From Gonapodya prolifera JEL478 (Eukaryota; Monoblepharomycota; Monoblepharidomycetes; Monoblepharidales; Gonapodyaceae), in assembly GCA_001574975.1 (NCBI GenBank), contig KQ965787.1:159093-223092 (forward strand): DNA of 64,000 bases, read 5' to 3'. Under the pieces are notes generated by a model. That model saw only the letters and a program-made list of their open reading frames with translations, did no database searches and was not told where the DNA came from. Within the stretch, counting starts at the first letter, position 1. Each line of letters begins with the position of its first letter. Positions 58,913 to 61,699 of this stretch are shown here, piece after piece. The translations under genes were made by a program, and so were the position numbers.

Positions 58913-61699
58913 TTAACCTCAGCATCCTGTGGTCTTCGCATCACTACCAGAAGATTTCGATATGCGAAGTTTGATCACTTCCTCTGCAAGCCGAGAGAAA
59001 GGTCACGTCTTCTCAGTATTCCGGATTTTAGGCCACACTGGATTACGAACCTGATGTCGTTGGGTGTATACCAATCGTCGCAGCAAAATCGCTCTTCGTG
59101 GCACGCAGTCTCATGGCAACAGCGTAGCCCTGGGTCACTTCACCCGCGTTGGGTCCCAAGTAGTGGAATCCCACAACGCGGTCGTTCTCGCTCCTCACAC
59201 AAATCAATTTTGTGAAACAAGCGTTATCTTCCCGGTGCGGAACAGTCCACTCTAGCGGCTTTTAAAGGCAAAATGTTTGGAATGCTGAGTAACCGCTGCA
59301 TTTTTTTTGGCCACCCTACCTTGAAGTACGAATGGTAGACCTCTGGCGAAAGTCATGTCAAAATGGAGGTGAAAGTCACATCGCAAGGCCAACTCTTACC
59401 AATGTTGCTCTCGCCAAATTTTGCGATTGCGGCTTCCTCACTCAGACCGATAGAGCCATATTCCAACGGCGTGAACACTGTCGTCGGAATCATGTCGTAG
59501 TCGGTCAGCTCGCTTGACCCCTGGTACAATCTACGCGAAAGCAGCTTTCCAGTCTGGATCGCGAGGGGAGTGAGCTCTGGCTTGTCCTGCAAAACATCAC
59601 CAATACCAAAAATGTGTTGGATGTTGGTTTGCTCTGCCTGGTTAACGACGACTTCAGAAAATAAATGCGTCAACCAAAATGAGAGTAAAACATCCTTCTG
59701 TTCGAGCCACTCACGCTTCCCTGCACCGTCGGAAACAACTCCAGCCTTGTCAAGCCCAAGCCAACGTGTCTCCGGCACTCTTCCTACAGCCAAGACAACG
59801 GTATCATAGACATCCTATGACCAAAACGGTTGAATTTTTGGGTCAACAGCAATTCAAATGTCGTCCTCAGTAGATGAGTCACTACGCACACTTGCAGCTG
59901 TGCCCTTATCTTGAGACCAAGTGACTTTAACCTGATTTTGCTCAGTTTTCTCCATGTTGATTGGGACAGCGGGTCGAATAAACTTTGTGCCATGTGCAGA
60001 CATATCTGATGATGGAGTCAATTAGCATCAGGTCGAAGAAACGGAACGACGCAGCAGCAGCCAACATACAATCAACAATTTTCTCGGCACATTCTTGATC
60101 GAATCCTCTCAAGAAAATAGAGCGCGCCATGACGGTAGTGTCGTAACCTAGACTAGAGGTTGGCGCACCTCTCCTTTGGTGGTGAAGCCCTTTACGACTC
60201 ACCCAACTCTGTCAAAAACCCAGCACACTCAAGTGAGACATACGAGGCACCAACAACGAGAGTCTTGCCAGGTGGTTTGGAAAGGGAAAACAGGTCATCC
60301 GACGTGATGCAAAGCTCTCGATCAACGCCCGCAGGCAAATCCAGGTACTTTGGCCGGCCGCCAACAGCAATAACAATGTGTCTTGCTGTTATTTGCTTGC
60401 TGGATTGCGGAGCGTTGGTCTATTGGCAAGACGTAAGTGAGAAATCGAAGGTCGTCATAGTCAGGGGCAGTCACAGCTCACCTTTCTGTTGAAAGTTGTC
60501 ACTTTTACAGTGTGGGGGTCCACGAACTCACCCATACCGTTGATGTATTCCACATTTTCATCCCGCAGAGCCACGCGATACCCCCAGTTGATGGACCCAA
60601 TGTGATCTTGAATGTTGCTCTTCAAATCTTCCCTGTTTTTGAACGGTGATTTCCAGAACGGAATTTACGTTATCAAGAATATACCCACCAGTTATGTTGC
60701 ACCTTTTCCTTTTCAACATTCCATCCGTAATGTTTCGCGTCCTCCAGAGTTTGTCCGACAAGCCCAGCAGTGTGGTAGAGCTTTTTCGGAATACAACCCA
60801 CGTTGACGCATGTTCCACCCAAGCCCCATTTGGTTCCTGGCGGACTTGGCCGGACATAGTCGAGGACGGCAACTTTTTTGCCCAGCTTCGCTGCCTCTCT
60901 TGAACAGGCGAGTCCACCAGAGCCTCCTCCGATGACGATCATGTCATAGTCGAAAGAGTGGGCGGCACCGTCGCCCTCGAGAAGGGCGTGCAGGCTTCCG
61001 TTGTCGTGGGCCTCTTTGGTTTTGTCGAATCCTCCGACAAGCTCTGTACCGAATTGGGCGTATTAAGCTCAGACGAGGCAAGGCTCAGTACGTCGGCACT
61101 CACGACCACGAATGTACACTTGTGGTACAGAGCGAATGCCATGGTGTTCCTTCAAATAATCCTGCATGATGTGCGAGTTGTTATCGCTCCGCTTCAAGGT
61201 GCAGTCCATCGACCCCGCGCAATCACCTGTATCTCCTGTTCACTGGGGAGTAGGTCGAGCTCAATGGCGTTGAACTCTACCCCGATCTCGTTGAAAACTA
61301 TTCTCGTGATTGACTTGGAAGATATTGGAGATGCTACAAAACGTCCCACCACTCACGCGCTTTCGCTTTCCTGCACCACGGGCACCACGTCTTGGAGAAC
61401 AGTGCTACTTTGTTCCTCTCCAAGTGCTTTTGAACCAGCTCCGGAATCGGTAGACCGATGATATCGGCATTTTTTGCGTTGGGATCCCCACCTGAACCGC
61501 CTGTTGCCGCCATTTGGACAGAAAAGCTGTGAAGGCGACGGGCGGCAGATGGGAGGGAGGATGGGGAAGTTGGATTACGAGTTGAGGACAGCTTTAGGAT
61601 CGATTCTGGTCTCCTGAGCTGATTGTCTTGAAGTATTGGCCTCCTTGCAGTCAAAAAGAACGCGATGCTTCTGCTTGTGAGAGATGGAACCCTCGGCAC
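58913..61699 (-). CDS. TGR: Thioredoxin-glutathione reductase (glutaredoxin-TrxR fusion), selenoprotein with TGA-encoded Sec
   Basis: NADPH-dependent flavoenzyme reducing thioredoxin and glutathione through one polypeptide. Two in-frame starts: 61699 ([20 protein letters not shown], a mitochondrial-type leader) and 61513 ([20 protein letters not shown], cytosolic). Glutaredoxin part: [61 protein letters not shown]. TrxR part: [20 protein letters not shown] (FAD), [17 protein letters not shown] (redox CVNVGC), [80 protein letters not shown] and [12 protein letters not shown]. The last exon reads [20 protein letters not shown], then Cys, TGA (58919-58921), Gly, TAA (58913-58915): the GCUG terminus of animal-type enzymes. 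Conventional translation would drop the last redox residue. Confidence 0.93.

Follow-up and report, generated by a model that had tools for sequence, protein, structure and literature searches.

A thioredoxin-glutathione reductase gene with a putative selenocysteine UGA and an adjacent RNA hairpin

The minus strand of the window, i.e. the whole 64-kb stretch of DNA that was analysed here, carries a gene that by its sequence is a thioredoxin-glutathione reductase (TGR) of animal style. The last-but-one codon of this gene is a UGA, and from the sequence its best reading is selenocysteine (Sec). Very probably, the gene encodes a selenoprotein TGR in which the UGA is decoded as Sec; the leading, though less certain, candidate for a recoding signal is a hairpin close by. 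The Sec-type TGR is real, it probably comes from an early-branching fungus, and its kind is already known in principle.

Gene structure

The gene was modelled with 13 exons between positions 61513 and 58913 of the minus strand (Table 1). The splice sites were chosen by eye with animal thioredoxin reductase (TrxR) sequence as guide, and the model was checked by family and structure searches, both of which share the homology that guided it. The spliced coding sequence comprises 1857 nt without a frame break, and 12 of the 12 introns are of the GT-AG type with lengths of 55-75 nt. A single spliced frame holds the motifs CPWC and CVNVGC as well as the terminal GGA-TGC-TGA-GGT-TAA; the fusion of a glutaredoxin domain and a TrxR ending in Gly-Cys-TGA-Gly-TAA that the earlier note had described was thereby confirmed. 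The glutaredoxin domain extends via exon 3 into exon 4. A pseudogene was also considered and rejected, the frame being intact.

Table 1. Positions in the window of the TGR gene, its parts and the neighbouring hairpin.
Feature	Position	Strand	Basis
TGR gene, 13 exons, 618 codons + TAA	58913..61513	(-)	splice model and homology
Exons 1-2, most of the glutaredoxin domain, motif CPWC	61227..61513	(-)	splice model; PF00462 at residues 36-98
Exon 4, FAD-binding part, redox motif CVNVGC	60689..61043	(-)	splice model; Pfam
Last coding exon, ending Gly-Cys-TGA-Gly-TAA	58913..58983	(-)	splice model
TGA, putative Sec codon	58919..58921	(-)	position in splice model and PDB alignments
92-nt hairpin, candidate non-consensus SECIS or UGA-adjacent recoding element	58821..58912	(-)	RNA folding

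The first in-frame ATG is located at 61513. The gene boundary had previously been set at 61699, which proved to be an in-frame GTG within an open stretch without ATG upstream of this start codon. The stretch (61514-61765, minus strand) comprises 84 in-frame codons before the TGR start, with 12 K/R and 2 D/E; CTG occurs in frame three times. It possibly encodes a mitochondrial presequence, or translation may begin at a CUG. Its openness is weak evidence for a targeting sequence, since random stretches of the same length in the window (2563 of 19742) and shuffled sequences (321 of 5000) were likewise open. A CUG start of mouse TGR appears in the title of a reference cited in PMC3316567.

Enzyme identity and proposed electron route

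The family model TIGR01438 (thioredoxin and glutathione reductase) matched residues 126-618 with 707.6 bits (cutoff 475.85) over model positions 1-485 of 485 and thus reached the last residue of TGR. At the N-terminus, PF00462 (Glutaredoxin) matched residues 36-98, which include the motif CPWC, with 63.2 bits (cutoff 22.9), while TIGR02180 (GRX_euk) scored 81.1 and remained under its cutoff of 87.25. The other Pfam domains were Pyr_redox_2 (residues 128-469) and Pyr_redox_dim (489-599). Among the listed 25 of 63 families, the models for glutathione, lipoamide, trypanothione and mercury reductases stayed under their own cutoffs.

In the PDB, 203 sequences matched TGR at an E-value of up to 0.001. 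Within the best 60 of these, the top nine entries, with lengths of 584-602 residues, were thioredoxin-glutathione or thioredoxin-disulfide reductases, and TrxR1 and TrxR2 came next. The three detailed alignments (22ey, 22fc and 2x8c) extend to residue 618 of TGR, and five of the first nine matches stop at residue 616 or 611, where the chains end. We take the best matches to be flatworm TGRs (e.g. of Schistosoma) with a Sec end; these share with the present enzyme the fusion of glutaredoxin and TrxR and align to its C-terminus, but differ in host lineage and in the glutaredoxin motif, which is CPYC or CPFC in the detailed alignments versus CPWC here. The vertebrate enzymes TR1, TR3 and TGR belong to the same family, in line with the TrxR1 and TrxR2 entries among the matches. 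A pattern search for relatives with a single-protein query, suited to close relatives only, gave 0 matches in viral contigs and 12 in prokaryote contigs, none of which were relatives.

By homology to the mechanism known for animal TrxR/TGR, electrons from NADPH would pass via FAD to the CVNVGC pair and from there to the Gly-Cys-Sec-Gly tail at the C-terminus of the other subunit; the final acceptors would be thioredoxin or, by way of the fused glutaredoxin domain, glutathione. For the insertion of Sec at the UGA, the usual eukaryotic machinery would be employed, presumably encoded elsewhere in the genome, and the hairpin directly after the stop codon may, with less assurance, serve as the recoding signal. 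No tRNA genes were found by ARAGORN in the 64-kb window.

Reading of the UGA codon

In the three detailed PDB alignments, the TGA of TGR falls on the penultimate, Sec-type column. This column holds an X in 22ey (the third entry listed), which probably represents a masked Sec, and Cys in 22fc and 2x8c; we assume that the native residue of these chains is Sec at this position. After the UGA, one Gly codon and a stop codon follow, which matches the GCUG end. The sequence GGN-TGY-TGA-GGN-stop occurs a single time in the window (both strands, all frames), at the TGR site, and the looser TGY-TGA-GGN-stop three times. The TrxR class of enzymes depends on its C-terminal Sec; termination at the UGA would delete this residue, so that Sec is the best reading. 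The earlier proposal of Sec at this TGA is strongly supported by protein homology. The SECIS whose search had been suggested with it was not found in consensus form by Rfam or the patterns applied.

Two other readings were weighed against Sec. Were the UGA a plain stop codon, the protein would end in Gly-Cys and the downstream Gly-stop would be a relic or due to chance; this would agree with the failure of Rfam and of the patterns to detect a consensus SECIS, but it would leave an otherwise intact gene without its catalytic Sec and would have to account for an exact GCUG end whose full motif is present only once in the window, and it is regarded as improbable. A slightly smaller chance still is given to readthrough of the UGA with an ordinary amino acid, aided by the adjacent hairpin. 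Readthrough stimulators act about 6 nt downstream of a stop codon, and a stable structure does begin 6 nt past the UGA; however, such an event would have to fall by chance on precisely the Sec column of a Sec family, and UGA is not used for Trp in TGR, where TGG serves at nine and TGA at none of the nine Trp codons. From the same codon counts there was no indication of a general reassignment of UGA to Trp. Decoding as Sec is by far the preferred reading of the codon.

Search for a SECIS element

The search for a SECIS that had been suggested along with the Sec reading yielded no consensus element by Rfam, the type I pattern or a stricter pattern; what it did yield was a hairpin near the UGA that deviates from the consensus. 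In Rfam, which presumably includes a SECIS model, no SECIS was reported for the TGR 3′ region at E-values of up to 10 in a run without a positive control; the only matches there were the snoRNA models sR23 and sR19, far under their gathering scores. The stricter eukaryote-type pattern gave no site in 58918-58240 on the TGR strand and 75 sites in the window on both strands. The published loose type I pattern (PMC11227280) was applied in an own implementation with closed arm ends, and in 58930-58240 it gave 21 five-prime cores, six of them at -5 kcal/mol or below and none with RUGA, GA and AA together. To match this pattern, the arms of the hairpin need one mismatch, one deletion and one insertion, and without the first G-C pair they score -4.9 kcal/mol, which narrowly misses the limit of -5.

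When 58930-58200 was scanned for RUGA together with a closed upper helix, GA and an AA close by, a single candidate emerged, with its core at 58889 inside the hairpin. Over the whole window, the same scan (AA in the loop, lower stem of at least 4, energy of at most -5) gave 16 sites, and with an energy of at most -9 and a lower stem of at least 5 it gave three, the TGR hairpin included.

Properties of the hairpin beside the UGA

The hairpin begins at 58912, the first base past the TAA. Its core consists of GUGA from 58889 and AGA at 58856-58854 on opposite sides of an internal loop, and its apical loop is AGUGCGAA, with AA on the 3′ side. In the minimum-energy structure, read by eye, the GA lies across from AG in a 2x2 loop between U-A and G-C pairs, which sets G against G and A against A; for a GA/GA quartet, another register with one bulged A is required, again read by eye. 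The fold reaches -45.2 kcal/mol compared with -30.65 (sd 3.35) for shuffled sequences, and none of 200 shuffles was as stable, with a resulting z of -4.34. By GC-corrected stability the hairpin ranks 12th among 15848 92-nt windows on both strands, the 11 above it corresponding to four places, and uncorrected for GC, 19 windows lie at or below -45.2 kcal/mol. These values are somewhat overstated, the bounds of the hairpin having been set with the fold in view. More stable 92-nt folds are located at 15677-15776 (both strands) and 10345-10484 (plus strand). A repeat origin of the hairpin was rejected: the window holds no second copy, and other matches are 14 nt or less.

According to Mariotti et al. 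2019, most fungal selenoproteins reportedly have no consensus SECIS but other RNA structures. SELENON carries a normal SECIS in addition to its selenocysteine redefinition element, whereas none was recognised for this TGR. Redefinition elements are structures directly downstream of Sec codons, and that of SELENON resembles the TGR hairpin in lying just downstream of the UGA (PMC8704476). Distances between UGA and SECIS of 207-5207 nt in mammals and, for Dio1, a minimum of 51-111 nt are quoted in PMC3316567, and in this respect the vertebrate TR1, TR3 and TGR differ from the present gene, in which 29 nt separate the UGA from the only candidate core. Lokiarchaeia have a SECIS-like structure whose AUGA motif frequently overlaps with the terminating UGA (PMC11227280). 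It is conceivable, though rather doubtful, that this lineage has shifted its Sec signal to a place beside the UGA and that the hairpin is a compact SECIS in near-bacterial placement, unlike in mammals.

Other content of the window

With a minimum length of 120 aa, the window contains 146 stop-to-stop ORFs, and 11 of the 40 that were scanned against Pfam matched: NAD glutamate dehydrogenase (2), urease (2), DUF1003, CFA20, primase small subunit, F-box, Ephrin_rec_like, citrate/arsenite transporter and short-chain dehydrogenase. The combination of NAD-dependent glutamate dehydrogenase, urease and DUF1003 agrees with a fungal host; domains such as CFA20 (cilia) and Ephrin_rec_like occur outside fungi too. 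Judged by known gene distributions, the short introns and the gene content would fit a zoosporic early-branching fungus. A less likely alternative, compatible with the Sec reading, is a host from another eukaryotic group, for instance a unicellular relative of animals, where a Sec TGR would be nothing unusual; the CFA20 and Ephrin_rec_like domains would allow for this, while the 55-75-nt introns and the fungus-like gene set speak against it.

Part of the CFA20-domain (cilia-associated) gene lies at 39400-40035 on the minus strand and hints at a flagellated organism. The open frame at 21000-22322 (minus strand, 441 codons) has seven matches to Ephrin_rec_like, a domain associated with animals more than with fungi. 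The only Rfam match at gathering threshold in the window was the bacterial 5′ ureB sRNA (24282-24637, minus strand, 52.9 bits), antisense to the urease-coding ORFs; most likely it reflects coding similarity and not an RNA gene.

Selenocysteine in fungi

Selenoproteins are said to occur in nine early-branching fungi (Mariotti et al. 2019), with which this TGR would share the use of Sec in fungi. The literature consulted bears out the earlier statement that a few early-branching fungi use Sec, and the matter is already published: Gonapodya prolifera is named among Sec-using fungi (PMC7988114), nine species from the fungal groups Chytridiomycota, Zoopagomycota and Mucoromycota were shown to possess Sec machinery (PMC11378755), seven of the nine Sec fungi are Harpellales (PMC10386755), and Zancudomyces culisetae expresses selenoprotein and machinery genes (PMC12611240). 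Two papers from 2021 describe fungi or fungal proteomes without Sec (PMC7988114, PMC8559351); these statements rest on annotated proteomes, where the present TGR and similar genes would be cut at the UGA. In the literature searched, consulted in part and mostly outside subscription journals, no mention of a fungal Sec TGR or TrxR was recognised.

If the host is fungal, the gene would place an animal-type, high-Mr redox enzyme that depends on selenium on the fungal side of the opisthokonts, and it would be in keeping with descent from a common ancestor and subsequent loss from most fungi. The fresh lead from this locus is the hairpin, which offers a testable candidate for Sec insertion in fungi without a consensus SECIS.
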